Source: Bacillota bacterium | GTDB taxonomy: Bacteria > Bacillota > Sulfobacillia > JAMDAP01 > JAJYMS01 | Direction of reading: 5' to 3' | Length of the DNA stretch: 47,211 nucleotides | Assembly: GCA_021786825.1 (NCBI GenBank) | Contig: JAJYMS010000236.1 | Span: 1-47,211 of the forward strand | Part shown: piece by piece, positions 10,661 through 44,675 of the stretch | Position numbering within the stretch: position 1 is the first letter of the stretch | Layout of the letters: each line of letters opens with the position of its first letter | Program-made: the position numbers and the translations under genes | The notes under the pieces: model-generated | What the model was told of the DNA's origin: nothing | The model's input: the letters and a program-made list of their open reading frames with translations, nothing else | The model's database searches: none

Positions 10661-10846
10661 GTCAGTCGAGCTGTGGACATGTTCAAGCAAACGGCGGCTC
10701 AGTTGCAAGTTGACATTGATGCAAGGGTAGCCCGTTCTGCTAGCCACATCCTGAAGAGCCGCCATCTTTCCACCGCCTGATGGGACGACGACTACGATGA
10801 GGCGGTGATACAGTCCAGCGGCTTCCTCAGATCTTGCCGATAATGT
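10661..10846 (-). pseudogene. BrxF-like (type 3 BREX) ATPase remnant
   Basis: The stretch SARSEEAAGLYHRLIVVV, a P-loop-like PSGGGKMAAL, then RTGYPCINVNLQLSRRLLE matches the N-terminal half of BrxF, the small P-loop protein of type 3 BREX, as I know the family. The P-loop is damaged: the Lys is followed by Met instead of Ser/Thr. The similarity stops abruptly after SRRLLE and the rest of the gene is missing. The sequence then runs in frame into the OLD gene leader. It has no start of its own that I trust. It indicates that a type 3 BREX locus once stood here. Confidence 0.55.
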
Positions 10847-10870
10847 GGTCAGATAGCGACCCGGTCCCAA

Positions 10871-26101: not shown

Positions 26102-26653
26102 TTAATGCGGTGCCTCGAGCCGCAACTCATCAACAGCCTTGATCGCCGCAAGCGCTTCCTCGATTGAAACATGTGGCTTCAACTCGTGAAGGCGAAGCGC
26201 ACGGCCTTTTTCCGCCTGGTCAACGCCCTCCTCTTCTTCAGTCACGTAAAGGGCAGTGGCAAGTCGTTCCAATTCCGCTACTCCCTTTGGCGATAACTGC
26301 TTGGCAACAAACTCTATCCCTTGCTGATAATCGCGAAGTGTTTTTCGAAAACGATCCATCAAGGCTGCAGCTAAGGCACCCGGTGAGAGCGAAGGTCCGT
26401 AGATGTTTGACCTGACTTGAAGCTCGATCAGGGAATCGACGCGCATGGCTGTAAGTTCGTCGCGAAGTTCGAAGGAAAAGGGACCGTGCTTATACAAGAT
26501 GAATCCGAACTCAGTTGGAACATAGAGCATCTCCTGCAGGAAGTACATGCATTTCTGGACATGCGTTTCCCCACACCAACTTCCCTCCTCCTTCATGTTG
26601 CTCAGGAGGGACAGGACCACAGCCTTTCGCTTCAGTTCCTCCACCTTTCTCAA
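26102..26653 (-). CDS. YwgA-like protein (partner of HD hydrolase)
   Basis: 183 residues. The N-terminal part (LKRKAVVLSLLSNMKEEGSW, CGETHVQKCMYFLQEML, FGFILYKHGPFSFELRDEL) has the pattern of the YwgA family, which is related to the Panacea/SocA-type antitoxin-like fold in having a small helical body that meets a partner protein. In Bacillus subtilis ywgA lies beside ywfO, an HD-domain gene, and the same order occurs here. The TTG start overlaps the stop of the HD gene by four bases, so the two are translationally coupled. Function unknown; regulation or inhibition of the HD enzyme is a fair inference. Confidence 0.7.
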   Translation of the reverse strand: MRKVEELKRKAVVLSLLSNMKEEGSWCGETHVQKCMYFLQEMLYVPTEFGFILYKHGPFSFELRDELTAMRVDSLIELQVRSNIYGPSLSPGALAAALMDRFRKTLRDYQQGIEFVAKQLSPKGVAELERLATALYVTEEEEGVDQAEKGRALRLHELKPHVSIEEALAAIKAVDELRLEAPH

Positions 26654-27963: not shown

Positions 27964-28061
27964 GATCTGTCCTTTCCCCTTCGGAATTCTCACGCCTCCG
28001 ACGGATTTATCCCGAATCCATTCTACTCCATGGGCGAACTTATGTTCGTCATGTCGGCTTC

Positions 28062-28411: not shown

Positions 28412-30448
28412 TCAGTTCAACCCCAGAGCTTTCAGGGCCGCGGTCAGAGGGTCGGCGTAGAATATCGGATCGACTTTCTCCACGATCTCCCCGGAGACTT
28501 CAAGGAAGTGGCGCTTGTTCTCAAGCGGTACTAGTGCCCGCTTGGCGCCGTTGTCCATGGCCACCTGCAGCGGCTCGGCCAGGGAGCGAACGCCGCGAAG
28601 GTTCCCCTGGATCGTGAGGTCACCCAGGATCACCAGCGCCGGCAGGGCCGGCTGTCGCTTTAGGGCGGAGTAGATAGCTACGAACAAAGCCACCCCGACC
28701 TCACCCTCCACTCGGCTGTTCAGGAGATCGATGGCCTCCACGTGGAGGTCCGTCGTCTCCATGTCCCAGCCCAGGCCCAGTTCCACTTTGTGGGCCTGCA
28801 GATAGGCAAAAGCGCGGTTCAGCGAATCTCGCACCGGCCCGACAATGCCGCCGGCAGCCTTCAGCTTCCCCGTCCCGGCGGCAGTTCCCACTTCAATTCG
28901 GTACAAGGTTACGCGGCCTTCATCCCCCACGGCGGCAGTATACACAGTCCCGGGAGCCAGCGGATCCCCGGCAATCGCATTGCGGCCGCCCTCCTCCGGC
29001 ACCCCCACGAATCGCTCCTGCCGGGTCTCCTGGTCGATGTAGGAGAAGCTGGTCTGATGGAATTCAAAGGCCCCCATCTTCTTCAGTTGTTCTTTTACCC
29101 GCCTACGCCCTTCCAGGGCCAGGTCCAGGTACTCGCTCAACTGCTCTTTTCCGAAAATCCCGTTGGGATGCAAGAGCTTGAGGAAGGCGGCCACTGTCTT
29201 GCGCACCGCCTTGGCGTCACGGGCATTGAGGTGTTTGCCCAGGGCAAAGTGATGCTCCAGGGCCTCGGCGAAGTTGTGCTTGCGGAGCGCCCGCAGCGCC
29301 TCAGCCAGGTAGTCGACAACGAAACCGTAGCGGTCCGTGAAGAACTCCGCGGCCATCTTGGGGACTTCCCAGCCGGGCAGGTAGAGGTGGAAGCGATCGA
29401 TGAGAGCCATGTCCTGCATGGCCTCGGGGAGGGGCTGGAGCAGGTGGCTGGATTTGACCAGTACCTCCACCGGCTGGTTGATGTTCCCGACGAAGACGAG
29501 GGAACCCTCGGCGACGATCTCCTCCTTCCCACGGCTGAAGGAACCAGCCTCCATGTAGTCTTTCAGGATCTGCACGCCAGTTTTGTCCGAGAACTGTATC
29601 CCCGCCACCTCGTCGAAGGCCACCACGTCCCAGAGACCCACCAGGCCTACCTTGTTTGTCGCCATGTTATGGAACAGGTTGGCCACCGTCGTCTTGCCAC
29701 CGGAGACAAGGATGGCGTAGGGCGAGACCTCGCGATAGACGAAGGACTTGCCAGTCCCGCGGGGGCCCAACTCAATCAGGTTGTAGTTGCTCTCCACCAA
29801 GGGAATGAGGCGCGCAAGCAGGAGGAGCTTCAACCGTCGGGGGAAGGTAGCGGGCTCCATGCCCATACTGCGGAGGAGAAGGTCGATCCATTCGTCGGTG
29901 GTAAACTCGGCCCGCCCCCGGCAGTAGTCCGCCAGGTCGAAAGTGGCAAGCTGGATCGGCCTGAGTTCCCGGATGTAAAAGGGGCTGCGCTTGCCGGTAG
30001 CCGCGTCATCGAAACGGTAATCCATGTCTACCTGGGCCCAGACGCCGCCCTCCAGTAGCCGCTCGAACTCGCGGACATAGCGGTCCGGGATGTGCACGTG
30101 GTTATCACCGAAGTTGACCAGTTCGGCCCAGTACTTGTCGTCGCTGGCCAGGAGGCGCACCTTTACCTTGTCGATGAAGGTGTACCGCCCCTGTTCCTTG
30201 ACCCGGGACTGGGCTTTGGCCGCTTCGTCCGGGCGGACGTAGTTGCGCGCAAGCGTGTCGTTGACCACGCGGAGGCCAACGTCGATGGCCGCCGGATCGT
30301 CGGAAGCGCAGTACTTGCCCAGTAGGTACTCAAGGACATATACGGGCACGTTGGCGCCGACTTTCACCTTGCGAACTAGATCCTTGCGCACAACCTTGCC
30401 GGAGAAGACGGCGTTAGCCTTCTGATCCAGCAGATCGGGTCCCGGCAC
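28412..30448 (-). CDS. brxL: BREX protein BrxL (AAA+ / Lon-like)
   Basis: 678 residues, normal for BrxL. An N-terminal region (RKDLVRKVKVGANVPVYVLE) is typical of the family. Walker A lies in LGPRGTGKSFVYREVSP (about residue 229), Walker B in WDVVAFDEVAGIQF, and the sensor region in FVGNINQPVEVL. A C-terminal Lon-like domain follows (VALFVAIYSALKRQPALPAL, then GDLTIQGNLRGVRSLAEP). BrxL forms MCM-like rings on DNA in type 1 and 4 BREX and is needed for defence. By eye the Lon catalytic Ser and Lys positions are not conserved here. The GTG at 30448 has GGAGGTGGGG upstream. Last gene of the BREX operon. Confidence 0.92.
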   Translation of the reverse strand: MPGPDLLDQKANAVFSGKVVRKDLVRKVKVGANVPVYVLEYLLGKYCASDDPAAIDVGLRVVNDTLARNYVRPDEAAKAQSRVKEQGRYTFIDKVKVRLLASDDKYWAELVNFGDNHVHIPDRYVREFERLLEGGVWAQVDMDYRFDDAATGKRSPFYIRELRPIQLATFDLADYCRGRAEFTTDEWIDLLLRSMGMEPATFPRRLKLLLLARLIPLVESNYNLIELGPRGTGKSFVYREVSPYAILVSGGKTTVANLFHNMATNKVGLVGLWDVVAFDEVAGIQFSDKTGVQILKDYMEAGSFSRGKEEIVAEGSLVFVGNINQPVEVLVKSSHLLQPLPEAMQDMALIDRFHLYLPGWEVPKMAAEFFTDRYGFVVDYLAEALRALRKHNFAEALEHHFALGKHLNARDAKAVRKTVAAFLKLLHPNGIFGKEQLSEYLDLALEGRRRVKEQLKKMGAFEFHQTSFSYIDQETRQERFVGVPEEGGRNAIAGDPLAPGTVYTAAVGDEGRVTLYRIEVGTAAGTGKLKAAGGIVGPVRDSLNRAFAYLQAHKVELGLGWDMETTDLHVEAIDLLNSRVEGEVGVALFVAIYSALKRQPALPALVILGDLTIQGNLRGVRSLAEPLQVAMDNGAKRALVPLENKRHFLEVSGEIVEKVDPIFYADPLTAALKALGLN

Positions 30449-30574
30449 GGCCCCACCTCCACGGGTTCGCAACGCTAATGTGCGCTAATGGCCACTGTTG
30501 CTTCCGCTATTTCGCCGCCCACCTTCCACTGACCTTCCAGGCGTCTTGGAGTGATGCCCGGGGCGGTCATCCCC

Positions 30575-33109
30575 CTACATCGCCAGATCAAATTTGACGT
30601 CCCTGGACGCTAGCACGGCGCCAGTCGCCGCGTCGAGGAGCTGGATGGATAGCGTCCCTGTCCCTTCCGCACCTTGCATCATTAGGGTAATATGGTTGTC
30701 CTGGCCCGCGCTGAGGACGACCTCCTGGGTCGCTGGGTCGTATCCTTCAACCGCAGTGGCGGCAAAAGCTACCTCCTGGCCGCCAGCCACGCCTACGCAG
30801 CGCACGCGACGCTCGGATGTACTCAGGAAGGTACCCTGATCGTATCGCACCGTTACCGTGAAGATGCGGTTGGTGATACGGTCGCGGGCCGTCCGCAGGG
30901 TGAAGGCATCTTCCTTTGTGGGGTCGGGAGCCGCCGCCAGGCGGAAGGTGAGCACAGGAACCACCAGTTCCTGAAGAGACAGTCCACCGTGGAAATAGGC
31001 CTGGTTACCGCCGGCAACCTTGAAAGCGCCAAGGCCACGAGGGAAGGCGAATTCCAGGTCGCCCCCCACCCCCAGGTCCACCGCCTTGAAACGTAAGTAC
31101 TTCTCAGAAACTGCGCCGCCCCGCCCGATCCAGCACCGGCGGTGCAGTTCCACCGTGTGGCCGCCGGGGGGATCCACCTTCATGGCCTCGGAGAGTTCCT
31201 CGCCCAGCAGGTAGCCGTGGTCGGCAGCGATGACGAAACGGGAGACCCCGGCCTTTGCCAGCTTGCGGACTGTCTTTAACAGGTTGAAGAGCAGGGGAGT
31301 CATCACCTGGCGGGCCAGGTGGACGCTATCCCGCTCGCCGATGTCGTCGATCTCCTGAGAGCGCACCACGAGCAACCGCTTGCCCTCCAAGCGTGCGGCC
31401 AGGGCTTTCTGCCCCAACGAGAGGAGCGAGTCTAAGGGCATGTCCACAACGGCACCGCCAAGGGTTGCATCAAGGAACCTCATCCGCTCCGGGCTGGTGG
31501 CAAGCACCCGGCCGGCTACCTCGGCCACCGCCTTCCCACCGGCTTCTATGACAGCCATCCCCTTCTCCGCACCCCGGAGAAGAGCAGCCATGCCAATCCG
31601 GGTAATCGTGGGAGGAACGGCCACCGCCGGTCGAATGGACTGATCCTCTGCATCCGGCAACCGCTCCAGCAGATCAACGCCCATTTCGTAGCGGAGGGCA
31701 TCCACCAGAAAGAAAGCAACCGGCTCCGTTTGTAGTGCAGGCGCCACTTCGGACTGGAAGACATCGGCCTGGTGCTCGATGCGGCCGAAGTCAAACCCGT
31801 GGTCCTTGATAGCAGCCAGGAAATCTTCGGCCAGGCGCTCGCAGGCCTGGTGATGGGCCTCGCGGGCAGCCCGCACGAGATCGTCCAGGGCAACGTCCTC
31901 CTCCGACTCGGCCAGCCGCCACTCCAGCAACCGGTAAAAGGTATCGGCCAGGTACCAGGCGCCGACACCCGTTTCAGATTGGGCGTACAGGCGGACGAAA
32001 GCCTCCGGCGTCCACCTTTGCGAACGCACCTCAGCCTCTACCCACCTAGCTTCCTGCACCAGCCGCACGGCCATCCCCGCGGCCTGCCACTGGACGCCCA
32101 AATGCTGATCGTGCTTGACCCAGAAAGAAGATGCCCTGCCCTCCAGCAGCCGTAGCGCATCGCCTACCCGCCCCTGGGCAACAAGGTCGGGCAGGGCCGC
32201 GAGGATGACCTCCGCCGCAAACGGAAAGGTGTCCGAACCACCGAGGTCGGTGGCCCTGAGCCCCAGATCCCGCAGGCGATACTCCTCCTGCACCTGGCGG
32301 GCGAGGGTGATATAGGTGTCCCTCGCCGGCTCAAGAGCGCGCAAGTGGCTGGCCGCCCGCTGGCATGCCTCCACCTGCTGCGGCCTCGCCGCCAGGGCCA
32401 AACGGGACAGGGCGGGAACCTCAACTTCTGCATTCAGGCCAGCCAGGAACTCATTGACGAGGAGGTGCCGCCCAAGACGTCGCTTGAACTCCGCGTGAGT
32501 GGCCGGACCGTCCGGCGGCAGCCCGAAAGCCTCAGCCAGAAGCCGGGCCAGGTCCGGCAGTGCGCCCTTTGCATCCAAGACCTTCTCCATCTCCGGTTCG
32601 ACGAGGTAACGGACAGCAATCTCGTGAGGGGTGGTGGTCCCGAAAATCATGGGGATCACCCCGCGGCCGGCCGCCCCTGGCTCACCCAAGCGGTCCAGAT
32701 CCTCCAGGGTGAGCTTTTCGTTGGCCAGCAGGGCGTCCAACTCTGACGGGGCATAGACCGACTGCAGCGCCTGCCGCGCAACCGTCTCCAGCGTGGCGTC
32801 GAATATGCCGCCGGCCTTGGCCACGCCCAGGAGCACGTCCGAGCGCTCGTCCAGCCGCGGCGCTGGGACGTAGATGAGCAGGCAGTCTAACACAGCCATG
32901 TTTTCGGTCCCATATCGGGTAAACAGGTCCTCCACCTCGCGGCGGAGGCGGAAGTAACTGCCTTGGAACCGCACCACCCGCGCGCCGCCCAGGGTCAGGT
33001 TTTCAGCGAACCCCTTAAAGGCGCAGTCCGAGTCGTACCATATGAGGACACGTTGTTCACGGAGCTTCTTCCGGATCTCCTCGATCACCCATTGGCTGAC
33101 CTTTCCCAT
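30575..33109 (-). CDS. pglZ: BREX protein PglZ
   Basis: 844 residues, the usual PglZ length. The alkaline-phosphatase-like core has FFLVDALRYEMGVDLLERL (about residue 470) and RFVIAADHGYLLGEELS (about 626), the metal-ligand segments of the PglZ domain. The N-terminal part starts VLIWYDSDCAFKGFAENL, common in type 1 PglZ. PglZ is a metal-dependent phosphodiesterase-type subunit of BREX and binds BrxB. The ATG at 33109 has AGGGGCCT upstream. The gap to the pglX C-terminal gene is about 370 bases and contains a gene remnant. Confidence 0.92.
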   Translation of the reverse strand: MGKVSQWVIEEIRKKLREQRVLIWYDSDCAFKGFAENLTLGGARVVRFQGSYFRLRREVEDLFTRYGTENMAVLDCLLIYVPAPRLDERSDVLLGVAKAGGIFDATLETVARQALQSVYAPSELDALLANEKLTLEDLDRLGEPGAAGRGVIPMIFGTTTPHEIAVRYLVEPEMEKVLDAKGALPDLARLLAEAFGLPPDGPATHAEFKRRLGRHLLVNEFLAGLNAEVEVPALSRLALAARPQQVEACQRAASHLRALEPARDTYITLARQVQEEYRLRDLGLRATDLGGSDTFPFAAEVILAALPDLVAQGRVGDALRLLEGRASSFWVKHDQHLGVQWQAAGMAVRLVQEARWVEAEVRSQRWTPEAFVRLYAQSETGVGAWYLADTFYRLLEWRLAESEEDVALDDLVRAAREAHHQACERLAEDFLAAIKDHGFDFGRIEHQADVFQSEVAPALQTEPVAFFLVDALRYEMGVDLLERLPDAEDQSIRPAVAVPPTITRIGMAALLRGAEKGMAVIEAGGKAVAEVAGRVLATSPERMRFLDATLGGAVVDMPLDSLLSLGQKALAARLEGKRLLVVRSQEIDDIGERDSVHLARQVMTPLLFNLLKTVRKLAKAGVSRFVIAADHGYLLGEELSEAMKVDPPGGHTVELHRRCWIGRGGAVSEKYLRFKAVDLGVGGDLEFAFPRGLGAFKVAGGNQAYFHGGLSLQELVVPVLTFRLAAAPDPTKEDAFTLRTARDRITNRIFTVTVRYDQGTFLSTSERRVRCVGVAGGQEVAFAATAVEGYDPATQEVVLSAGQDNHITLMMQGAEGTGTLSIQLLDAATGAVLASRDVKFDLAM

Positions 33110-33301
33110 AGGCCCCTCCTCTTGGACCGCGACGCTTAAACCAGCACCCTGGCTCGGAGCATTTGCTCAATCTGAGGTCCTCAGGCTGAATCTTCTCCAC
33201 CATCACGCGGTAAAGTTATAGGCGGCTAACCACCTGCTGCCGGTGTTCCTCCCGTTTCCGGGCGGGCTCCACCAACTCCACAGTGAGGAATTCGCGCCCC
33301 T

Positions 33302-33475
33302 TCAGAACCATCCACTTGATAGGGCGGATGCTAGGTCGCTAGCCAGGAGGTGGTGTTTCCTGGCGCGCTCCTCGCGGATGACCTCTTCCGCAACGCTGCG
33401 GAATTCGTCCCCTCCCGCTTTCGCCCCAACCTTGAAGAGCTGTCGCAACAGACGGCCCTCCGCCACCGTACTCAT
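33302..33475 (-). pseudogene. AAA-ATPase N-terminal remnant between pglX and pglZ
   Basis: The ATG at 33475 lies six bases after the pglX-C stop and has GAGAGG upstream. It gives 57 residues with EGRLLRQLFKVGAKAGGDEF, VAEEVIREERARKHHLL and ASDL. This pattern (a helix, G-D-x-x-F, then a long E-rich helix and H-x-x-LA-x-x-L) is like the N-terminus of AAA+ ATPases that pair with S8 proteases in mobile regions. A second stretch in another frame (KGREFLTVELVEPARKREEH) follows to about 33230. The rest is gone, so a two-gene insertion probably decayed here by deletion. Confidence 0.4.
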
Positions 33476-33481
33476 CCTCTC

Positions 33482-35515
33482 TCATCGTGACCGTTTACCC
33501 CCCGAAACGGCCAACCCCAGCCGTTTCGCCATCGAGGACCAGGGGTACTTGCCGGCCTGTAGTTCCTGCCAGGCCTTCGCCGCCTCTTTCCAAGGCACCA
33601 CCTGGTACAACGGGGCGATGTTCAGCAGCACACCGTCGTCCAAGTCCGGGTCATACCCCATGTGCGCCACTGTGCTGATCTGATCCCGGAACTGGCTCAA
33701 CTCCTCCAGTAACCTCTCTTGCGCCTCTGCCCGCCTGGCCAGTTCGTGTTCCTCCCGACGGTTGCCCGCCGTACGTGCGGCTGCCAGCCGTTCCTCGGTC
33801 TCCCGCGCCTTCTGCTCCTCGTACTGGATCTTCGGCTCCACGTAGGAGCGCAGCACGGTGAAGAGGGTGTCGTGGTTCAGGCGGTGGTAGTAGAGCCAGA
33901 CGGAGTAATTCTTGCGGCTGGAGCAAAGCTGCCAGAAAATCGGCGCCTTGCGCCGGCTCTTGCTGTACATTCTTATGTGGTAGGGGAAGAAATTGTTGCG
34001 CAGCCAGTCCCGCAAGTCCTTTACGCCGAGGAGCCGCCAGGCCTCCTCCTCGAGGGCCGCCGGGTCGCCGTCGGAGAAGAGGTGGGCGAGCACCTGCCTG
34101 ACCCGAGCCACGATATCCGCCGGGTGGCCCGGGTCGTCTACCAGGATGCCGTCCAACGGTACCCGGATGGGGTAGTCGGCAGGCGCTGCCCGCCCCAGCA
34201 GGCCGTCCCCACCCACCAGCATACCCGGCGAGCAGCGGGGCAGCGGATCGAAGGGGCCCGGCAACGGCGGCGGTTCGATGTCCCCCCTGCCAACACGCAC
34301 GTCCCAGCGGCCGAAGGCGCAGCCAACGGCGTAAGAGAGAACTGCCGCGATGAAGCCGGGATGATCCGTCGATGGTGCTTCGCTCTCATGGATGTCTTTT
34401 TCATCATCGCATTCCTCTGTCGCAGGATCGATTTTCTCCGTCGCAGATGCTTCGATAGCCCTCCGATCCTCATCACGGATCCCGTACAGGCCGTACACGA
34501 TCTTGTCGATTTCGTGCTGGCAGGCAGTTTGCTTTGCCCTCTCTTCCTGAAAAGTCATTTCCCATTGCTTGCAACGCTCAAACAGATCTTCTTTGGGCAC
34601 CCAGAAGAGCGCTGGGCGAATGAAAGAACGGCTGGGCTCGTCAGCGGTGTCAAGAGAGCGCTTCAGGTGAAAGTGGTATAAAGCCAATTTCCCTAACCGG
34701 CTGCCCTCAGATCGCGCCAGAGGCGGCAGCGGCGTCCGTTGAATGACGCCAACTTCAAAAGAACCGAAAGCCATCTGAAGAGAGATGAGTCCAGAGAAGG
34801 CTATGCTATTGGCGATTCCCAGAAACGAGCCGAGTTCTTTGACAGGAACGAAAGCGACGGGACCTTTGTCGGCAAATATACTTCCGGCACTGTAAGTGCG
34901 CATGTTGAATCCCTTCTGAGTACGCCGCGTCCACGTCAGGCCCGGGCGGAAGAAGTACTCCCTTTCCGTTTGCTTGAGCTGCCATACATTCGAGTAAAGC
35001 TTTCTCGTATTCGGATTGATTCGTGACTTTATTTCTTCGCCGTCGTCCCGCCAGTTCACCACCAGGTGGACGTCGGCGTAGTAGGGCGAATACTCCCCGC
35101 CCTTGGCAAAGGGCACCCAGTACTGCCCTCGTCGGGTGGCCTCGCGACAGACCTCCTGGTAGCGCCGCAGGGCCTCAGGGTCGCCCAGGTCCTCGGCCCG
35201 CGCCGGCACATGCAATATGCGCTCCGGTGGCACCTCCCACCAGGCGCGGACAAAGCGGAAGTCATCAGCGGTTGCGAGCCCCTGCTTAACCGTGCGCCCG
35301 CCGCCCTCGAAGCGCGGTAGTTCCCGAAACTTGCGCCGCAGGGCGTCGGAAACCCAGTAAGCGAAGGGCGAACCGGGTATAAGGCGCAAGCTGACCAGTT
35401 CGGCTGAATAGACGTTCCCATTGGCCTGTCCTGCGTTCAGGTCCTGAACTGTTTGGCGCAACGCCGGTTCCTTGTCTTCGACTCCCAACAGGCGAACGAA
35501 CAGGGACGTGGCCAT
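33482..35515 (-). CDS. pglX: PglX C-terminal polypeptide (recognition and C-terminal domains)
   Basis: 677 residues matching the second half of type 1 PglX. It begins with TSLFVRLLGVEDKEPALRQT, which in ordinary PglX follows directly after the methyltransferase core. Next come FRFVRAWWEVPP, YWVPFAKGGEYSPYYADVHL, the recognition region, and the C-terminal DYPIRVPLDGILVDD, WLRNNFFPYHIRMYSKSRRK, APIFWQL and QISTVAHMGYDPDLDDGV. The ATG at 35515 overlaps the stop of the embedded nuclease gene (TGATG) and has its own GGAGGGGCGGG, so it can be translated as a separate chain. Positions about 34350-35030 are more AT-rich than the flanks, suggesting an exchanged recognition domain. Confidence 0.9.
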   Translation of the reverse strand: MATSLFVRLLGVEDKEPALRQTVQDLNAGQANGNVYSAELVSLRLIPGSPFAYWVSDALRRKFRELPRFEGGGRTVKQGLATADDFRFVRAWWEVPPERILHVPARAEDLGDPEALRRYQEVCREATRRGQYWVPFAKGGEYSPYYADVHLVVNWRDDGEEIKSRINPNTRKLYSNVWQLKQTEREYFFRPGLTWTRRTQKGFNMRTYSAGSIFADKGPVAFVPVKELGSFLGIANSIAFSGLISLQMAFGSFEVGVIQRTPLPPLARSEGSRLGKLALYHFHLKRSLDTADEPSRSFIRPALFWVPKEDLFERCKQWEMTFQEERAKQTACQHEIDKIVYGLYGIRDEDRRAIEASATEKIDPATEECDDEKDIHESEAPSTDHPGFIAAVLSYAVGCAFGRWDVRVGRGDIEPPPLPGPFDPLPRCSPGMLVGGDGLLGRAAPADYPIRVPLDGILVDDPGHPADIVARVRQVLAHLFSDGDPAALEEEAWRLLGVKDLRDWLRNNFFPYHIRMYSKSRRKAPIFWQLCSSRKNYSVWLYYHRLNHDTLFTVLRSYVEPKIQYEEQKARETEERLAAARTAGNRREEHELARRAEAQERLLEELSQFRDQISTVAHMGYDPDLDDGVLLNIAPLYQVVPWKEAAKAWQELQAGKYPWSSMAKRLGLAVSGGKRSR

Positions 35516-36123
35516 CACATCCCGCCCCTCCATGCCAAGTATTGAATCAGTGGATCGGGAAAGAAAAGCCTGTCGGATCTCTTCGGATCCTTATACCGGG
35601 CTATTCGGTCTTGGATAAACCGATCAACATGCCTCAACGTCAAGCTCAGCCATGGGCCATCAAGCTTTCGCTCAGTGATAGTCATCTTCGATACAACGAG
35701 TCCCTCCCAGGCGACGGTCGCTTGGCGTCGTAATGCTTCAGCCAGCGGGCAGGCCTGATCTCTAGGAACTACACCCACGCGTAAAACAGCAGTTTGAAGC
35801 CTTGGAAGGGCGAATACACTTTGCTCCAATTCTCTGCGTAACGTCCCCGGACTTTGGGTACCCGTCTTGACCTCGACGATGACGACAGTAGTCCGTTGCA
35901 ATATCCCAAGGTTATCCAAAAGAAATGGGTCCCAATCGGATGCGAGTCCGCCGACCTCCTCATATACGTGGGGGAACCTCACCGCCAAGATGTCGGTATC
36001 AGCTGACGAGCCGCCGCGATTTCCAGCAGCGCGCAAATCTTCGTGGTGCAAAACGAAATTGGGCAACGGGAAAAAACCGTTCAAACGGAAATACCAGTAA
36101 GCAATTACTTCCCCGTAATTCAT
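35515..36123 (-). CDS. PD-(D/E)XK-like nuclease embedded in split pglX
   Basis: 202 residues. ADTDILAVRFPHVYEE supplies the acidic residue after a glycine/serine-rich loop, and TTVVIVEVKTG supplies the E-x-K on the next strand, about 60 residues later. With the N-terminal helix (MNYGEVIAYWYFRLNGFFP) this is the PD-(D/E)XK core arrangement. Predicted to cut or bind nucleic acid; the exact family is not recognised. The ATG at 36123 has GAAGGAGC upstream. Its stop overlaps the pglX-C start. The codon use and lower GC differ from the BREX genes on both sides, so it was probably acquired as cargo. Confidence 0.65.
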   Translation of the reverse strand: MNYGEVIAYWYFRLNGFFPLPNFVLHHEDLRAAGNRGGSSADTDILAVRFPHVYEEVGGLASDWDPFLLDNLGILQRTTVVIVEVKTGTQSPGTLRRELEQSVFALPRLQTAVLRVGVVPRDQACPLAEALRRQATVAWEGLVVSKMTITERKLDGPWLSLTLRHVDRFIQDRIARYKDPKRSDRLFFPDPLIQYLAWRGGM

Positions 36124-36443
36124 GCTCCTTCACCCCATGCGGTAAAGTATGGGCACCCGACTCCGGTCAAGAGGCGATCAACCTGTTCCCCTCACCCGGA
36201 CGCCGCCGAACAGGGCGACACACCTTCTCACCAAACTGCCCTTTGTCTCATACTGAAGCTGACCAGCGCGGACTCGTAGCCAACCTCCCAAGCTTTCCCG
36301 CCGAGGGTCCACCCACCTCGCGGTTCAGCCGCTGCACAATTAACGAAGGGCATCGAGGTCGCGTTCCGGTGTGATGGTTTCTCACGCGATCGCGACCTTT
36401 CAACACCGCATGTACCCGCTTGACACAGACCTTAGGCCCCAAT
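36124..36443 (-). other. Gap between the two embedded genes, with a nested hairpin
   Basis: About 320 bases without a convincing gene. AGGTCGCG at 36356-36363 pairs with CGCGACCT at 36391-36398, enclosing a smaller GTGA/TCAC stem. A smaller GCGG/CCGC stem lies just below. No T-tract follows the main stem on the minus strand, so this is not a standard terminator. A structured RNA or the decayed end of another gene is possible. Confidence 0.35.
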
Positions 36444-37274
36444 CTACGGCTCATCAATCCAGTCACTGACGCCCTTGAACCACATATCCGGCAGTAACTC
36501 CAAAGCCCAGTCTTTTCGCTTAAGAAGGAGCTTCGAGGACCCTAGGGCGTTTCCCAACTCAGAAATCTTATCACGAAGGCTGTTGACATCAGGATTCCGC
36601 CCGAATGCCAAGAGAAGGCGGCCTATCACCCAGCAAAACAGTCCAAATAATAACGTAATCCGAGAAGCTTTGAGCGGATCACAGGTTTGAGGACCTATGA
36701 GCACCGTCCCGATATAGCCGTCGCCTGTGGCTTTGGGGGCAGAGAGGTACGCAAGCTGCCACCCCTGAAGCTGCGGCGAATAGTGGGCATAGGGTTGAAC
36801 CGCCCGCGATAAGTTAGAGAAGAACTCTGTCCAAGGTTCATCCCACAGTCCACAGCCATACCGAGGCCAAACCTCTTGTTCCAGAAATGCTCGCACATCA
36901 CCGTTCGTAAGTCTACCATCTTTCCACTGCCTGAGAACCTCTGCCACAAGGCCTTGGTCCTGAAGCCCTACGTCAACAAGGGTCATGGCTTCAATGCACT
37001 GTCGAAGAAGCGAAACCGCTACGGCATGCCTTCCTTCCCTATTCGCGTTCATACTCTCCACAAGACAGTCCACCAAATGGTGCATGGCGCAAATGGGGAC
37101 CGTCCCAAGATCGGGGTCCTGCGGGAACGCCTCTTTCAACACGTTCATGCCCATTGAGACCAGTGGCGGTAGCAGGTGCTCGGCCAGTTTCAGCCATCTG
37201 GGAGTGCTGTATGCATCCGCACGGGATCGTCCCGTCAAGGCCTCCACCTCCTGGAATTCGGCGAAGCTGAGCAT
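36444..37274 (-). CDS. Unknown helical protein embedded in split pglX (HEPN-like?)
   Basis: 276 residues with no family I can name. Mostly alpha-helical: LKLAEHLLPPLVSMGMNVLK, HAVAVSLLRQCIEAMTLVDV, and a hydrophobic stretch ITLLFGLFCWVIGRLLLAFG near the C-terminus that could be buried or a single membrane helix. The LLRQCIEAM helix is reminiscent of DUF5677/HEPN-type proteins, but the diagnostic R-x4-6-H is not evident. The ATG at 37274 follows the pglX-N stop by a few bases with AGGTG upstream. The gene is clearly lower in GC than brxC and pglX-N. Together with the nuclease it forms a two-gene cassette. Confidence 0.6.
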   Translation of the reverse strand: MLSFAEFQEVEALTGRSRADAYSTPRWLKLAEHLLPPLVSMGMNVLKEAFPQDPDLGTVPICAMHHLVDCLVESMNANREGRHAVAVSLLRQCIEAMTLVDVGLQDQGLVAEVLRQWKDGRLTNGDVRAFLEQEVWPRYGCGLWDEPWTEFFSNLSRAVQPYAHYSPQLQGWQLAYLSAPKATGDGYIGTVLIGPQTCDPLKASRITLLFGLFCWVIGRLLLAFGRNPDVNSLRDKISELGNALGSSKLLLKRKDWALELLPDMWFKGVSDWIDEP

Positions 37275-37278
37275 GCCA

Positions 37279-39117
37279 TTACACCTGAACGCACCCGTTG
37301 CGCGCCACATACGCCGCCGTCTCCACCATGGCCGTGTCCAGCACCCCGGCCCCCAGATCCGCTAGAATGGTTAATTCCGCCTTTTTTAGAATAACCTCCT
37401 CCCGCCACTTCTGGAAAGAGGACAGGAAGAATCCTGTTCGCGACGTGATGGCGCCCAGGTAGCCGCCCGGCTCCAGCAGTTCCAGGCCCCGTTCCACGAA
37501 AACGGCGTAGACGTCGTTCTTGGTGAGAGGATAGTCCTCCTCCAGATACTGCTTTGCCCGCGGGGTCGGGTCGCCGAAGGGGGGATTCATCACCACCACG
37601 TCATAGGGTTGCCGGAGGAGGTCGATAAAGTGGAGACCCTGCTCTACATCCCCGGCAAAGAGCCGGCGAAGATACCCACGTCCGTTCTCCACCTGTTGCA
37701 CGTACGCACGGAGGGCCATTATCACCTTTTCTTCCGCCCGTGCCCAGAAGCCCTCTCGCAACGGCGCGATGGTGGGAAGGTCGGCGCCCTCGCGGTGCAT
37801 AGCTTCCCGGATGGCCTTGTCGATCTGGCTTTCTGCCCGCAAGAGAGAACCCAGCTCGCCGGCGCCGCGCAGAGCCTCGAACGCCCTCTGGATCACCGGT
37901 CGCAGCTCTGACGGCTCGAAGCCGGCAACGAATTCGGCCCGCAGGTCGGCCTCCCCCGGCATCGGCTCGGCGCACACAACGTTCACGCGGCGGACGGGAG
38001 CTTCCGGGCGGTGCTTCTTTGCCTTGAGGTAGAGGGTCAAGGCCGCGATCTGTACCGCCCGCAGGTCGATGTCGATGCCGTAGAGGTTGTGCTCCAGGAT
38101 CAGGCCGGGGATGGCGCGGCGGAAGTCGTCTTCCAAGGGGAAGTCAAGGCGCAGTGCCTCGCCCTCCTCGGGATCGGCGTAGGTCTCCTCGTAGATGATG
38201 GCCAGCAGGTCAAAGGAGTAAAGCAGGAAGTGACCGCTGCCGCAGGCCGGGTCTAGGACGCGGATCTGCCGTGGATCCTTCCGTTCCCTTTTCCGCACTG
38301 CCTCCCCGGGCCGGCGCACCATGTAGGCGCACGTGTCGACCAGCCGCGTGTCGCGGTGCATCTCGTACCACAGTCGGCCCAGGGTGTTGTCGACCAGGAA
38401 CCGTACGACGTAGTCCGGGGTGTAGAACTGGTTGCGAAACGCCATCTCCTCGGCGTTGCGCGGCGCCGGGCTCTCCTTCCGCGCCTTCTCCCGCTGCTCC
38501 TTGGGCGTGAAGTACTGGTAGATCCAGCCCAGGGTCTCGTCCTCGCCCCAGATGCCGGCCAGCTTCTCATCATTCAGCAGGCGCAGGGTCTCCCCGAGCG
38601 TTGCCGGCCGCGGAAAGATGTGCGAGTGGGGCAGGCTGCGGTCGAAGAGCGGGCGCAGTTCCATCGCTGCATCATCGCAGAGCAACTCCAGGTAACGCCG
38701 GTAACCGCCGTCGGGGTAACTGCGGCAGACCTCCTCGCAGGCGCGCTGGAAAGCCTTGAACCCGCCCGAATCCGGACCGCGGGCCACCGACTCGCGAATC
38801 AGGCCACGGGCCTCCATCATCCGTAGGGCTGCCAGCCGGTTGAGCCAGGTAAAGGCCGTTTCCCGCACGAACCGTTCCACGGCCTCCCGCAGCGGGACAC
38901 CGCCCGCCCACTCGTGCTTAAGGGCCGCCTCGATCTCCCTGCGGCGCCGTCCTAGGACTGGGTCAGCGCGCAGGGTGGCCATGGTCTCCGCCGGCTGAAT
39001 GGAGCCATCGTCCGAGATGCCGTAAGCCCCCTCCAGTTGCCGGCGGATGTCCTCCTCCAACACCCGGCGGGTCGCCGCCACCATTTTTCGAATCTCGTTG
39101 CGAACCGCCTTGTCCAT
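37279..39117 (-). CDS. pglX: PglX N-terminal polypeptide (adenine methyltransferase core)
   Basis: 612 residues, about half the length of a normal type 1 PglX. An N-terminal helical domain is followed by MAFRNQFYTPDYVVRFLVDN, the SAM motif VLDPACGSGHFLLYSFDLL (about residue 291), YGIDIDLRAVQIAALTLYLK and the catalytic VVMNPPFGDP (about 511). It then reads ADLGAGVLDTAMVETAAYVA and stops at TAA 37279, exactly where the recognition half should begin. PglX methylates host DNA at the N6 of adenine. The ATG at 39117 shares one base with the brxC stop (TGATG). All catalytic motifs are intact, so activity together with the separate C-terminal chain is possible. Confidence 0.92.
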   Translation of the reverse strand: MDKAVRNEIRKMVAATRRVLEEDIRRQLEGAYGISDDGSIQPAETMATLRADPVLGRRRREIEAALKHEWAGGVPLREAVERFVRETAFTWLNRLAALRMMEARGLIRESVARGPDSGGFKAFQRACEEVCRSYPDGGYRRYLELLCDDAAMELRPLFDRSLPHSHIFPRPATLGETLRLLNDEKLAGIWGEDETLGWIYQYFTPKEQREKARKESPAPRNAEEMAFRNQFYTPDYVVRFLVDNTLGRLWYEMHRDTRLVDTCAYMVRRPGEAVRKRERKDPRQIRVLDPACGSGHFLLYSFDLLAIIYEETYADPEEGEALRLDFPLEDDFRRAIPGLILEHNLYGIDIDLRAVQIAALTLYLKAKKHRPEAPVRRVNVVCAEPMPGEADLRAEFVAGFEPSELRPVIQRAFEALRGAGELGSLLRAESQIDKAIREAMHREGADLPTIAPLREGFWARAEEKVIMALRAYVQQVENGRGYLRRLFAGDVEQGLHFIDLLRQPYDVVVMNPPFGDPTPRAKQYLEEDYPLTKNDVYAVFVERGLELLEPGGYLGAITSRTGFFLSSFQKWREEVILKKAELTILADLGAGVLDTAMVETAAYVARNGCVQV

Positions 39118-42100
39118 CACTCGATGACCACTCGCGCGCCCTCGCTCAGAAGCTTCAGGCAGTGCTCTCGCAGCCGGGCCAGGGCCTCCTCCAGGTCCAC
39201 GGACGAGGTGATCGAACCGTCGAAGAACCGCCGTGCCACCACGCGCTCCACCCGCTCTTGCGGCGCCGCCAGCCGCTCCAACTCGGCCAGCGCCTGGCGG
39301 AGCAACCCGTCCACCGCCGCCAGGTCCGCTTCCATCTGGTCGATGGACGGCTGGAAAGCGAGGTCGCCTGTCGCGGACGCTGCCCCCTCTTCCCCGACGC
39401 GGGCTTCCAGCGGGGTGATGACCCGCCGCCGCGCCTCTTCGGACAGGCCCTCCCACTCCGGGCGGCCCTGAGCCTCGTCGATGGCCCGGCGGTAGGCTTC
39501 GGAACGGCGTTGGTGCAACTCCGCATAGAACCGGCGGTAGGCAGTCTCTACCGCCTGCAGGTCGGCGGCGATCTCAGGCAGGCGATCATAAAAGGTCGCG
39601 GCCTCCAGGTTCGCCCCCAGCCGGTCTGCCGTTTCGTGCACAGGATCATCCGGGGCCAGGCGTCGGGCCAGGGCTGGCCAAGCCTGTACGAAAGCCCGCC
39701 GTGCTCGACGGAGTGTCTCCAGGTTGCCCTCCGACGTCGCCGCCTGCAGCCGGTCGGCCTCCCGCAGGCCCGCGATGATCGCCTCTCCCTGTTCGGCGAA
39801 GGTCTTTACAGCGTCGTCGGATGTGCTTTCAGCGATGCCCCGGAGCGTGGCCAGCAACTCACCCACGGGTTCGGCCCGGGGCAGCCGGTGGGCGGTCAGC
39901 CGCTCCCTAAGAGAGGCCAGGCGTTCCCGCTCCCGCTCGAAGCAGCGGCGCAAGGCGTCGGCGATGGCCCCCTCCTCGGGCAGATCAAGCCGCTCGCCGC
40001 TCAACTGCTCGTAGAGCCGCACTGCCCGCGTCAGGTCCTTCAACATGGTCCCCTGGCGCGGTCGGAAGGTTGCCGCCCTGAAGGCCGGGACCTTGCCAAA
40101 GGCCTCCCGTGCCCCCGGGTCTGATTGACTGCGAGCGCGCCTCCCTTGCAGGGACAACTCCAGCGCTCCACCCCGGAAGAGAGCCGCGGTGATGAGTATC
40201 AGCACGTCCGCCTCCCAGCCGTAGCCGAAGCCCCTGAACCGGTTCTCCAGTTGCTTGCCCGTGACGCTGTCGCCGTAAGCGTCCTGCTGCCTGATGAACT
40301 CGAGCACCTCCCGGGCCGGAGCCGCGTCGAGGGCGATGGTAGACTGGCCCCCCTGCTGCACCACCAGGCCCAGCCGCCCCTCCCCCTCGTAGCAAACTGG
40401 GGGAAGACCGTTCAGGTTGGCGGCGGCCAGCAGCGCCTCCGCCTCGTTTCCCCTCACCCGCACCGCTGCCAGGTCGAATTTGGGGTAGACCTCTGGTACT
40501 ACAATCTCCAGCAGTCGCCGCACCACCTCGGGCAGTTCACGGCCGAGGCCCGCTGCGGGGCGCTCCACTCCCCGGAAGTACGTCTTCCCGGCCAGCAGGA
40601 CATCGCGCAAGCGGACGCGCAAGTCCCGGCGGAGATTGTCCCGGCGGAGCTTTTCGTCCCCCAGGAGCCGCGGATCAACCAGCCGGGTGCTGTCCCGTTC
40701 GTAGCGCTGGACCATCATCTCCGACCGGTGGTACTCCCGCCCAAGGCGCTCGACCTCGTCGGTCGCCTCGGCCACCCAGTAGATGTGCTGCTCTTTCGTC
40801 CGGCTCTCCTCGCGAACCCTCCGGCAGGCTTCCTCGAACGCGGCCCGCTCGTCCTCCAACACCACGAACAGGGGAATATCCCCCTCCCTGCCCGTCGCCT
40901 CGCCGTTGACGTTCAGGGCGGCGCTGAAGTTGCGCACGTCGCGGTGGCGATAGGCGGGCAGGTCGCCAAACAGTTGCCCGGCAACCTCCCGCAAGAGGCG
41001 GAACTTCTCGGCCGGCTTTGGCTCGGGCAATCTTTGACGCTCCGTCTCCCATTGTTTGCCTTCGACGGACAGTAACGTATAACCCTTTTCCGTCAGCTTG
41101 GCCCGCTGGTTGTCCACCAAGATACCCAGGGCCTCACCAACCTCCGCCAGCAGCGACGGCGAGGCGACCCGCGGGTAGAGGACGGCGGCAACGTTCTCAG
41201 CGCTCCGCGGTAGCTTGTCCTCGAACTCCAACAGGCAAAGAGCCTTGGCCACCTTGGGCACCAGCGGCTTCTCCGCACCCCAAACGCCCTCGATCTCCCC
41301 GATGTCTCGACGCCGCTCCGAAGCCACGTTGGTGTCCAGTAAGTCGTATACCCGATCCAGGGTGACAAGGGTGCCAATCTCCTGCTCCCCAAGGGCAACC
41401 TTAGGGTGGATGATCATCTGCTGGGCCAGCTTGATAATCGTTCGGTTGCTTCCTCCAACGTGGCGGCTGGCCCCCGGCTGCCGGCGCAGCCCAGAGACGA
41501 CGTCGATGACGAGGTCCACCTGATAGGGCAGGAACGGGTACAAGCGGGCGAAGGAGTCCGCATCCAGTTCTCCCGGCCGGCGGGGACCGCGGGTGTGGGT
41601 GTGGGTTGCCAGGGCCCCTTTGTAAGCATCGTACAGTTTCCGCAGCTCGGCTTCCGCCTCCGGCTTCTTGAGCAGGACGCGCCTGGACGCAACGTCGGAG
41701 ATGTCGGCGGGGGACATATCGATCTGGGTGGCGAAACGGTCCTTCAGGCGGGCCAGTTCGATGGCCCGGCCCTCCAGGCTGTCCACCACCTCGTCCAGCT
41801 TCTCCTGGGAGGTGACGACTAGCCAGGCCCATCCCTTCCCCGCCCGGCCCAAGGCTTCAACAACCCCCTGCAGGTCCAGCATTTTCCGCACGCTGCGGGA
41901 GACGTATTGCCCCACCTCGTCGACAACAAAGACGATCCGCCGCCCGGGCCGCCGCCGGTGCACCAGCTCCAGTACCCGCTCCGCAAAGCGGTTGGCCGTG
42001 ATGTCGATGCGTCGCGGCGTTTTAGCCCAGCTATCCGGCTGAGGATAGGTGGACGGGTCGATCTCGTGCATGACAGCGCTGGCCTCGTTGAGGACCAGGG

Positions 42101-42713
42101 CGGGCCCCAGCCGTTTGCGCTGATCCCAGTCCTGCCGGTAGCGGACTTGGAATCGCTCCATGAATTCCCCCAGCCGCTTATCCGCCTCCAGGCTGATTTC
42201 CAGTTCGGCCAGCTCCAGGTCGTCGGAGTACCCCAGTTCCCTCAAAAAGGCCCGGTACATGATCTCCGTGAGCATCTCCGAACCGCTCTTGACCCCCCGG
42301 TCCTTGGCTACGTCAAAAATGACCGCGGTCGTGGGAATGCGCTGGTGGATGACGCCCAGCAGGGCGCGGATGCGGTCGTCGGCAGCCCGTGCGGCGAAGA
42401 TGTCCGCCGCGGGGCGTCCCTTCACCGACCGGTTCTCCAAGATGTAGCCCAGGGTCTTGGAGAAGCTGGACTTGCCCGATCCAAAGAAGCCCGAAACCCA
42501 GACGCCGATCCCCTCGTGGGGCTTGTTTGGCGTCTCCGCGTAAAGCTCCAGCACCTCGCGGTACCCTTCCACCAGGGATGGCGTGACGACGTATTCGCTC
42601 AGTTCGGCAAGAACGTCGTCTTCGTTGGTCTGGTCGACCTTGACGATCTCCTCTATCCGGCGTCCGATGTCCCCCTGGAAAAGGTCGCGAATCCGGGTTA
42701 ACGCCTTCGCCAT
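39117..42713 (-). CDS. brxC: BREX protein BrxC (large P-loop ATPase)
   Basis: 1198 residues, the typical size. IEEIVKVDQTNEDDVLAELS at the N-terminus, Walker A in VWVSGFFGSGKSSFSKTLGY (about residues 75-82) and Walker B in RRIVFVVDEVGQYVSRSVRK (about 265) define BrxC/PglY. A long C-terminal half is rich in charged coiled-coil-like helices. BrxC is an ORC/Cdc6-like ATPase essential for type 1 BREX. The ATG at 42713 has AGGAGGAC upstream; an earlier in-frame start would overlap brxB more deeply and is less likely. Confidence 0.95.
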   Translation of the reverse strand: MAKALTRIRDLFQGDIGRRIEEIVKVDQTNEDDVLAELSEYVVTPSLVEGYREVLELYAETPNKPHEGIGVWVSGFFGSGKSSFSKTLGYILENRSVKGRPAADIFAARAADDRIRALLGVIHQRIPTTAVIFDVAKDRGVKSGSEMLTEIMYRAFLRELGYSDDLELAELEISLEADKRLGEFMERFQVRYRQDWDQRKRLGPALVLNEASAVMHEIDPSTYPQPDSWAKTPRRIDITANRFAERVLELVHRRRPGRRIVFVVDEVGQYVSRSVRKMLDLQGVVEALGRAGKGWAWLVVTSQEKLDEVVDSLEGRAIELARLKDRFATQIDMSPADISDVASRRVLLKKPEAEAELRKLYDAYKGALATHTHTRGPRRPGELDADSFARLYPFLPYQVDLVIDVVSGLRRQPGASRHVGGSNRTIIKLAQQMIIHPKVALGEQEIGTLVTLDRVYDLLDTNVASERRRDIGEIEGVWGAEKPLVPKVAKALCLLEFEDKLPRSAENVAAVLYPRVASPSLLAEVGEALGILVDNQRAKLTEKGYTLLSVEGKQWETERQRLPEPKPAEKFRLLREVAGQLFGDLPAYRHRDVRNFSAALNVNGEATGREGDIPLFVVLEDERAAFEEACRRVREESRTKEQHIYWVAEATDEVERLGREYHRSEMMVQRYERDSTRLVDPRLLGDEKLRRDNLRRDLRVRLRDVLLAGKTYFRGVERPAAGLGRELPEVVRRLLEIVVPEVYPKFDLAAVRVRGNEAEALLAAANLNGLPPVCYEGEGRLGLVVQQGGQSTIALDAAPAREVLEFIRQQDAYGDSVTGKQLENRFRGFGYGWEADVLILITAALFRGGALELSLQGRRARSQSDPGAREAFGKVPAFRAATFRPRQGTMLKDLTRAVRLYEQLSGERLDLPEEGAIADALRRCFERERERLASLRERLTAHRLPRAEPVGELLATLRGIAESTSDDAVKTFAEQGEAIIAGLREADRLQAATSEGNLETLRRARRAFVQAWPALARRLAPDDPVHETADRLGANLEAATFYDRLPEIAADLQAVETAYRRFYAELHQRRSEAYRRAIDEAQGRPEWEGLSEEARRRVITPLEARVGEEGAASATGDLAFQPSIDQMEADLAAVDGLLRQALAELERLAAPQERVERVVARRFFDGSITSSVDLEEALARLREHCLKLLSEGARVVIE

Positions 42714-42741
42714 CCCGCCGTCCTCCTCAGCCGCTTCTTCC

Positions 42742-43296
42742 TCAGTAGATCTTGGGGCGGTAATTGTGCTCGGCCTCACAGACCGCCATGAACCGTAGGC
42801 CCACGGCGCCCTCCAGCGTCCCGGGATAGAAGAGCACGATGGGCACGTCCAGCCGGCCCATCAGGTTCTCCAGCAGCGCCGACGTCCGGAAGACCGGGAA
42901 GAGGTCGCCGGCACGGGTGAGCAATCCAACCGAATTCTTCGGGTCAAGGCCGATCAGCCGCTCAAACACCTTCTCGTCCAGCGGTCGGACCTCGGTAAGA
43001 ATGCGATGAACGGTGTCGATGGCTCGCTCGACGCCGTGCTCCTCCTCGGCTCTGAACAACCCCTGCAGGCCCTCCTCACCACCGAGGACCTCCTCGAGCG
43101 CCTCGAACATCAAGGAGACAAGGGACACCTCCCGCACCTGCCGTCCCTGCCGCCCCAGCCGGGTGGTCAGCGCCCGGATCTCCGCCCGCATTTCGAATTC
43201 CTCTTCCGGGTTATACCGAAAGATGGCGAAAGGCATGTCATGATAGGCGCTGATCCGCAGCTCGGGCGAGAGCAGGTGGGTTTCAAGCTCCTGCAT
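42742..43296 (-). CDS. brxB: BREX protein BrxB (DUF1788)
   Basis: About 184 residues. LETHLLSPELRISAYHDMPF, AIFRYNPEEEFEMRAEI, then LRFMAVCEAEHNYRPKIY at the end fit DUF1788, the BrxB family, whose C-terminal Y-R-x-K-I-x-end is characteristic. BrxB bridges PglZ and other subunits in type 1 BREX. The ATG at 43296 is chosen for agreement with the family N-terminus; starts up to 43353 would add 19 residues. It overlaps the end of brxA. Confidence 0.9.
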   Translation of the reverse strand: MQELETHLLSPELRISAYHDMPFAIFRYNPEEEFEMRAEIRALTTRLGRQGRQVREVSLVSLMFEALEEVLGGEEGLQGLFRAEEEHGVERAIDTVHRILTEVRPLDEKVFERLIGLDPKNSVGLLTRAGDLFPVFRTSALLENLMGRLDVPIVLFYPGTLEGAVGLRFMAVCEAEHNYRPKIY

Positions 43297-44104
43297 CCGC
43301 TCTTTCAACGAGCGCGTCAACGGCTTCGCAAAGGTCGGCGTATCGCCAGTCAATGCGTTTCACCCCCCCGGCTGTGTAATAACCCAGGTATTCCCGCTGG
43401 TGGGCGTCCAGGAACGAGCGCTCCACCGCCTCCTCGTTCAGAAGGAAGAGGCGCCAATCGGGATGTTCAACCACCCTGGCGCTGGACGCCACCTTGCCCT
43501 TAAGGTGGTAGGCGACATAGATAAACACGGCGAAGGGCAGGTGGACGGGCGCGAACCGCTTCTTCGCCGCCCCCTGCAGCAGGCCCCCCTCCCGGCAGAC
43601 CGTCAGCAAACCGCGACCCACCTTGGTACGCGCACAAGATGTCCATTCCCCGGGGATGGGCCCCTGACTCACCAGTCTCTCCACATAAGCCTCGCCGTCC
43701 GCCGTACCCACTTGATAACGCCCGCTTCGCCAAAGGTCATACAGACGTTCGGTAACGAAGTCGTAGAGCAGATCGTCTCCAAGCGCTGTGTGGTAGAAAA
43801 CGATCCGGTTCATGACCCCCTCCGGCGCGCCGGCCACGAGCAACTTGCGGGCACACTCCGCTTGTGGCACCTCGGGCGAAAAGAACCGGGCCATGAACGC
43901 CCGCCTCATAACATCCGCCGCCCGCGCCCTGGTTACCTTACCCAGCAGGTTCCCCTCAACGGCCTGGCGGCGGAAATCATCCGGATCCGTGCCGGGCTGC
44001 CACTCTCGTAACAGCGCCCGGCATTCCTCAAACATGGCGCCCTTGGTGATGTTCCGGGTATAGCGGCGCAAACCCGGTCTCTTATCCCTTTCCCTGGGCT
44101 CCAC
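43283..44104 (-). CDS. brxA: BREX protein BrxA (DUF1819)
   Basis: About 273 residues from the GTG at 44104, which follows the brxE stop by one base; a TTG at 44071 (MRRYTRNITKG) is an alternative. YTRNITKGAMFEECRALLRE at the start, VTRARAADVMRRAFMARFFS and ALGDDLLYDFVTERLYDLW match DUF1819/BrxA, a small DNA-binding winged-helix protein related to NusB in fold. It is part of the ordered brxA-brxB-brxC module. Confidence 0.9.
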   Translation of the reverse strand: MEPRERDKRPGLRRYTRNITKGAMFEECRALLREWQPGTDPDDFRRQAVEGNLLGKVTRARAADVMRRAFMARFFSPEVPQAECARKLLVAGAPEGVMNRIVFYHTALGDDLLYDFVTERLYDLWRSGRYQVGTADGEAYVERLVSQGPIPGEWTSCARTKVGRGLLTVCREGGLLQGAAKKRFAPVHLPFAVFIYVAYHLKGKVASSARVVEHPDWRLFLLNEEAVERSFLDAHQREYLGYYTAGGVKRIDWRYADLCEAVDALVERADAGA

Positions 44105-44105
44105 T

Positions 44106-44675
44106 TCAGCGATCCTTGAGCCGGTAATAGGGCACCACCAGCTTTCGCGGCCCGCTGAAGCAGTACGCTGCCGCCAACCTCTGGACGATCGACTGGATCG
44201 CCTCGGCAGACTCAAGACCCTCGGCGACTACCTCGCCCAGGCAGACGTTGCGCTCGCCGAGGCCCATGGCACTGCTTCGCAGGCGATCGATAGCCGCCCG
44301 GGACGCAATCCCCATGGCTACCAGCATCTCGGCTACACTGTCCTTAACTTGCGGTAGTGATGGCAGATCCTCATCTGCCATTGCTTCGCCGACAATTTTT
44401 CGCCGGAATAGCAGCTCATCCGCGGCTGCGTCGACCTCTCCGGTGAGGTTGAAGAGGGTGATAACAGGTATACCCGGCAAGAAGGTTGCATGCCGGGCCC
44501 TGGCCGCCTCGATGGCCATCTCCAGCCCGGCCCAATGATAAGTGCGCGGGAACAGACGCTGGAACCAAAAAGCACCGTCTACACTGGCCGCGTCACTTTC
44601 CCACCACTGAAATGCGTCTCGCTCGCCGAGGCGAGCAACACCAACGCAGCACCTGAGGACTCTCTCGATCGACAT
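44106..44675 (-). CDS. brxE: BREX protein BrxE-like
   Basis: 189 residues, first gene of the BREX operon. The layout, CVGVARLGERDAFQWWESDA, then FPRTYHWAGLEMAIEAARA and HATFLPGIPVITLFNLTGEV, followed by a helical C-terminus, matches my memory of BrxE, the small protein that begins type 6 BREX operons before brxA. Its biochemical role is unknown. The ATG at 44675 has GGGGTGAG upstream. It ends one base before brxA. A different small BREX accessory protein is possible but less likely given size and position. Confidence 0.7.
   Translation of the reverse strand: MSIERVLRCCVGVARLGERDAFQWWESDAASVDGAFWFQRLFPRTYHWAGLEMAIEAARARHATFLPGIPVITLFNLTGEVDAAADELLFRRKIVGEAMADEDLPSLPQVKDSVAEMLVAMGIASRAAIDRLRSSAMGLGERNVCLGEVVAEGLESAEAIQSIVQRLAAAYCFSGPRKLVVPYYRLKDR

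Follow-up and report, generated by a model that had tools for sequence, protein, structure and literature searches.

A probable two-chain PglX with accessory genes at its junction in a type 1-like BREX locus

The window examined here, a 47,211-nucleotide contig (C14) of a Bacillota draft genome (2.94 Mb, 274 contigs, 7.7% estimated contamination), carries pglX as two separate open reading frames (ORFs) with two further genes between them. This raises the question of whether the gene is broken, was invaded by a mobile cassette or encodes a working enzyme made of two chains. On the minus strand the genes run in the order brxE-brxA-brxB-brxC-pglX-pglZ-brxL, and all were found intact in searches with Pfam, PADLOC and NCBIfam profiles (Table 1).

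Table 1. Features of the BREX operon in the window.
Feature	Coordinates	Strand	Basis
brxE-family gene, 189 aa	44106..44675	-	NCBIfam BrxE_fam 98 bits, over cut-off
brxA ORF, 310 aa; true start internal, match begins at residue 50	43283..44215	-	PADLOC BrxA, E 2e-35
brxB, 203 aa	42742..43353	-	Pfam BrxB; PADLOC BrxB, E 3e-44
brxC, 1220-aa ORF	39117..42779	-	NCBIfam BREX_BrxC 744 bits
pglX-N: N-terminal bundle and adenine methyltransferase half	37279..39117	-	PDLC02527 3-658; 8c45 residues 4-611
ORF of 276-288 codons, family not found	36444..37274	-	homologue on Phaeobacter plasmids, 33% identity
Non-coding gap, 320 bp	36124..36443	.	modest hairpin 36356-36398
PD-(D/E)XK-like gene, 202 aa	35515..36123	-	D42/D44, E84-V-K86; homologue within split pglX of G042
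pglX-C: target recognition domain, spacer, C-terminal region	33482..35515	-	PDLC02527 664-1265; 8c45 residues 647-1212
pglZ, 844 aa	30575..33109	-	Pfam PglZ; PADLOC E 1e-144
brxL, 686 aa	28412..30472	-	TIGR02653 1035 bits

By profile searches, the type 1 BREX gene set (brxA, brxB, brxC, pglX, pglZ and brxL) is complete. BrxE is the mark of BREX-6 and BrxL that of type 1. Type 1 calls for the absence of BrxE, whereas BrxE_fam scores over its cut-off in the window operon; PglZ falls under every NCBIfam cut-off, with BREX-6 as its best match, and the pglX halves reach 342 and 415 bits, where the type 1 cut-off for a whole protein is 500 (NCBIfam). Hence, judged by these profiles, the system is a type 1-like relative with BrxL rather than textbook type 1. 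With BrxE and BrxL together, the operon (28412-44675, minus strand) is a poor fit to either NCBIfam subtype.

Other genes of note in the window also lie on the minus strand. A three-gene run at 255-7001 resembles a DISARM- or Zac-like defence operon and encodes an SNF2 helicase, a PLD-like protein of the ZacB/DrmC kind and a 707-aa protein with no family match. An OLD/Gabija GajA-like ATPase with a TOPRIM domain (8576-10870) is probably another defence gene, and beside it an N6_N4 DNA methyltransferase lies in broken pieces (7679-8579). Directly 3' of brxL are a dGTPase-like HD phosphohydrolase and then a short gene with a match to part of DarG (26102-27993), and upstream of the BREX operon is a Schlafen AlbA_2 and RecG-C-like protein (45036-46745).

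The interrupted region consists of four ORFs on the minus strand (37279-39456, 36444-37310, 35515-36123 and 33482-35533), with likely starts at 39117 for pglX-N, 37274 for the 288-codon ORF and 35515 for pglX-C; the first 113 codons of the pglX-N ORF overlap brxC. The PDLC02527 matches run on from one outer ORF to the other (Table 1), and NCBIfam BREX_1_MTaseX likewise covers pglX-N at 1-610 and pglX-C at 646-1209. The two ORFs are therefore consecutive parts of one PglX, as the initial annotation had proposed, and it was also right that two same-strand genes separate them. The motifs DPACGSGHF and NPPF are found in pglX-N, which ends in ETAAYVARNGCVQV followed by its stop codon, and pglX-C begins MATSLFVRLL. 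Taken across both halves, the N6 adenine methyltransferase motifs, the PglX target recognition domain (TRD) and the C-terminal region are all present; PglX is not a single polypeptide in the window or in nine related loci of its clade. The interruption falls where the methyltransferase domain ends, and alignment to structures placed it at residue ~611 of solved PglX, shortly N-terminal of the hinge (residues 638-675 in E. coli BrxX, PMC11842806; 654-659 in Salmonella PglX, PMC11341690). The isolated C-terminal domain of Salmonella PglX, from a construct cut at another point, could not be expressed (PMC11341690).

The first inner gene, the 288-codon ORF, gave no matches in Pfam, PADLOC, NCBIfam or PHROGs, and no homologues were found in viral contigs or phage records. 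Its model was all-helical with low confidence, the single-sequence prediction (pLDDT 44) being too poor to use. The second encodes a putative nuclease. Across 24 family sequences D44 and K86 are invariant and E84 is conserved in at least 90%, giving the D...(D/E)xK pattern, and the predicted structure (pLDDT 86.5) places it on the core sheet, with strands at 42-49 and 78-85. The best Foldseek matches of this model were restriction enzymes (BspD6I small subunit, MspJI and FokI), all weak (E at least 0.03, TM ~0.3), and a homology search of PDB sequences gave no match. The family is spread across Bacillota, Bacteroidota, Pseudomonadota, archaea and others. In one locus (L011, 2195-6615), a homologue lies 20 bp 3' of an Eco57I/MmeI-type methyltransferase-TRD gene with a helicase adjoining. 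Between the two inner genes, no sigma-70-like promoter was found in 36124-36443. The expression of pglX-C is uncertain because of this 320-bp gap and the lack of a recognised promoter.

To explain the arrangement, the initial annotation had proposed that a cassette entered pglX, leaving either a split enzyme or methylation that is blocked unless the cassette leaves. On the cassette account a mobile two-gene element interrupted a one-chain gene, which excision would restore. The inner genes do have a lower G+C content (0.55 and 0.52) than their neighbours (0.61-0.66), fused relatives exist, and an in-frame join can be drawn. The join suggested, CAG to GATGTG, keeps the frame; it is weak evidence because a join picked at will would do so one time in three, and in most relatives without genes between the halves (cargo-free) the two meet out of frame, at an ATGA overlap. 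Around the window pglX there were no flanking repeats beyond chance, no target duplication and no integrase, transposase or recombinase, and the genome holds no second copy; an 11-bp inverted repeat is no more than chance would give in 2.2 kb. With terminal repeats, target duplication, recombinase and other copies all absent, a mobile-element identity was rejected. It had also been stated that every junction overlaps or is a few bases wide, which fits the TGATGG overlap joining the nuclease-gene stop to the pglX-C start but not the 320 bp that separate the inner genes. The two genes, moreover, travel apart, since another locus (G042) has the nuclease only, and seven sampled cargo-free loci are split at the same point. 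Entry of a cassette into an intact pglX thus appears unlikely. A block on methylation until the cassette leaves is unsupported, as no excision signature was found and the split is recurrent.

The search for further genomes with the same split, which the initial annotation had suggested, was productive. Among the PglX loci sampled, ten from one clade are split, and so are two (G412 and G525) from its sister clade. Seven of the ten are cargo-free: L127, L128, L129, L130 and L138 (IMG/VR), and G602 and G600 (Acidobacteriota). The other three, which are the fully resolved cargo-bearing loci (n = 3), are the window, G042 and a Thioflavicoccus mobilis plasmid. G042, from another family of the same class, has pglX-N, a 212-codon nuclease homologue (46% identical to the window nuclease), pglX-C, pglZ and brxL, with a 4-bp ATGA overlap at both inner junctions. 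In the complete plasmid pTHIMO01 of T. mobilis, pglX-N is followed by a UvrD-like ATPase gene, then by a DUF2290 gene and pglX-C; the two pglX halves are annotated "DNA methyltransferase" and "hypothetical protein". Cargo-free halves meet in a 4-bp ATGA overlap in four loci, one of ~10 bp in L138 and TGATG in G602; in G600 they are ~155 bp apart, and the spacer (L148, 6718-6874) consists mostly of ~27-30 bp tandem and inverted repeats.

The break is common to all: pglX-N ends in VE[TA]AAY and a few residues, and pglX-C starts just before [FL]xRLL. In G412 it lies ~35 residues further on, and both sister-clade loci were kept apart from the main clade. Two loci were left out of the counts: G1085, whose halves overlap with missing sequence, probably through a frameshift, and G1221, whose contig ends before the other pglX half. 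In the latter (L155, reverse strand), a Schlafen AlbA_2 gene overlaps the start of a separate pglX-C. No close relative turned up for the locus in the window itself. Across a plain 399-genome sample of the phylum to which the window belongs, PglX proteins other than these were almost always fused; the two-chain form is thus a trait of certain lineages. The arrangement, called unusual for BREX in the initial annotation, is indeed so against the literature, but it is not unique.

The division of the genome into 274 contigs and its estimated contamination would allow for a chimeric assembly of this metagenome-assembled genome. G042 nevertheless has the same arrangement, and the complete plasmid one much like it. 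Since independent genomes show the identical break, it is not an assembly artefact, and a chimera is exceedingly improbable.

Decay of the locus, with a dead pglX and a BREX system that is inactive or independent of methylation, would be in keeping with how common broken genes are and with the fragmentary N6_N4 methyltransferase on the same contig. Against this, the BREX genes are all intact, and both pglX halves are free of internal stop codons and keep the methyltransferase motifs. Pairs of cargo-free split loci gave dN/dS values of 0.06-0.09 for the N half and 0.12-0.14 for the C half; hence the same split is maintained under purifying selection in relatives. Decay is accordingly rated as quite improbable. 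Selection in the split relatives together with the intact window halves and motifs argues for a working two-chain enzyme, and the split PglX, which is recurrent, is probably functional. This agrees with the split enzyme that had been suggested as one outcome.

A tree of 34 PglX proteins was used to place these loci, although recombination in the same gene compromises its inference. The split loci fall in a 21-row clade (support 100/99) of 10 split and 11 fused rows, which interleave, and at least six changes between the forms are forced by the starred branches over the 34-protein tree. G042 and the window branch first in the clade, and the sister pair is also split. The split may therefore be ancestral and the fusions later, the direction of change being uncertain because of the recombination. 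Nor does the split depend on the presence of cargo. The cargo-free splits, together with the split state of the deepest branches and of the sister clade, make it more likely that the inner genes entered a junction that already existed.

The nuclease might instead be an integral third subunit of PglX, ancestral to the clade and later lost. It lies between the pglX halves of the window and of G042, the first two lineages to branch off, a homologue is found directly 3' of a fused pglX in L029 (Pyrinomonadaceae), and a single clade of BREX nucleases is not rejected (p-AU 0.056). In the nuclease tree, however, the three BREX copies are not grouped, most inspected members of the family are lone genes at unrelated sites, and most of the PglX clade is without the nuclease. 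A third subunit is thus held to have only a small chance of being right, and the nuclease tree is compatible with one recruitment or with several.

Exchange within pglX was observed in relatives of the window locus rather than at the window locus itself. L127 and L129, both split, are 93% identical in the N half and 66% in the C half. Comparison of viral-contig operons with 96-98% identical BrxC showed a PglX identity of ~90% towards either end and of ~25% over residues ~550-1050, a segment that includes the junction and the recognition domain. On a nearly identical operon backbone, L133 is split and L136 and L137 are fused. With alike flanking genes and exchanged central PglX segments, L132, L133, L136 and L137 (IMG/VR) form a natural specificity-swap series. 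It looks as though the central segment with junction and recognition domain has been replaced between related operons. The TRD was the most variable part of PglX in a published conservation analysis (PMC11842806).

Taken together, the data probably reflect a two-chain PglX whose junction is older than the inner genes, lies within a recombining segment and accepts accessory genes. pglX-N would be the methyltransferase subunit and pglX-C the specificity subunit, translated from adjacent genes, and the chains would assemble into the equivalent of a one-chain PglX and, we infer, methylate DNA. The break (~611) precedes residue 650, given as the last of the methyltransferase domain in E. coli BrxX. 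The chains must accordingly have a fold element in common, which counts against the two-chain reading; on that reading the methyltransferase fold should be completed by the specificity chain, which would lock the two together. The junction would predate the genes that it now holds and would not depend on them. Lying in the segment that is exchanged when recognition domains swap, it would there flip between fused and split, and it would take up accessory genes: nuclease and helical protein, nuclease alone, or UvrD-like ATPase and DUF2290 protein. These are probably auxiliary effectors co-expressed with BREX. More tentatively, and less likely than not, two-chain PglX may act as an exchange port. 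Flanks conserved in the methyltransferase and the C-terminal region would allow the stretch between them to move as one piece, with the methyltransferase-specificity junction, the recognition domain and whatever accessory genes the junction has taken in, so that one recombination changes both specificity and auxiliary weapon.

A recurrent two-chain PglX would offer a natural means of assigning the contacts with BrxB, BrxC and PglZ to one half or the other, and of exchanging specificity. The pglX junction is a spot in which to seek further defence genes, and gene finders that need one long PglX will miss or mislabel split systems. Irregular pglX genes were reportedly noted by Goldfarb in 2015. 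A two-chain PglX was not found in the accessible published accounts, which treat PglX as one chain, and the words split and fission are absent from a recent BREX survey (PMC12839542). The half-length PADLOC profiles PDLC02526 (640 aa) and PDLC02532 (682 aa) match the window halves and are not described as subunits of one enzyme, which suggests that split PglX members are already in databases, unremarked.

Accessory genes within BREX operons are known from the auxiliary effectors GmrSD/BrxU, PARIS and PD-(D/E)XK, the last being the commonest kind in a 2026 survey (PMC12839542). The Salmonella pair of an ATPase and a DUF4435 protein sits between the core genes pglX and pglZ (PMC9009780), whereas the window's accessory genes are inside pglX. 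Compared with one-chain PglX/BrxX of type 1 BREX (E. coli HS and Salmonella; 9ewz, 8c45), the window PglX has the same domain order, with profiles spanning both halves, but forms two chains, broken at the equivalent of ~611 with genes between. BREX is usually contrasted with type I systems by having its recognition domain within the methyltransferase chain. The recurrence of two-chain PglX indicates that this contrast is not absolute. As with HsdM and HsdS of type I systems, the methyltransferase and specificity parts of the split PglX each have a gene of their own, the two genes often overlapping by 4 bp, and the putative specificity part exchanges faster; the likeness is one of gene arrangement. 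Unlike type I restriction-modification, the family in the window is PglX, with BREX partners, no HsdR, and a PglX-type TRD and spacer.
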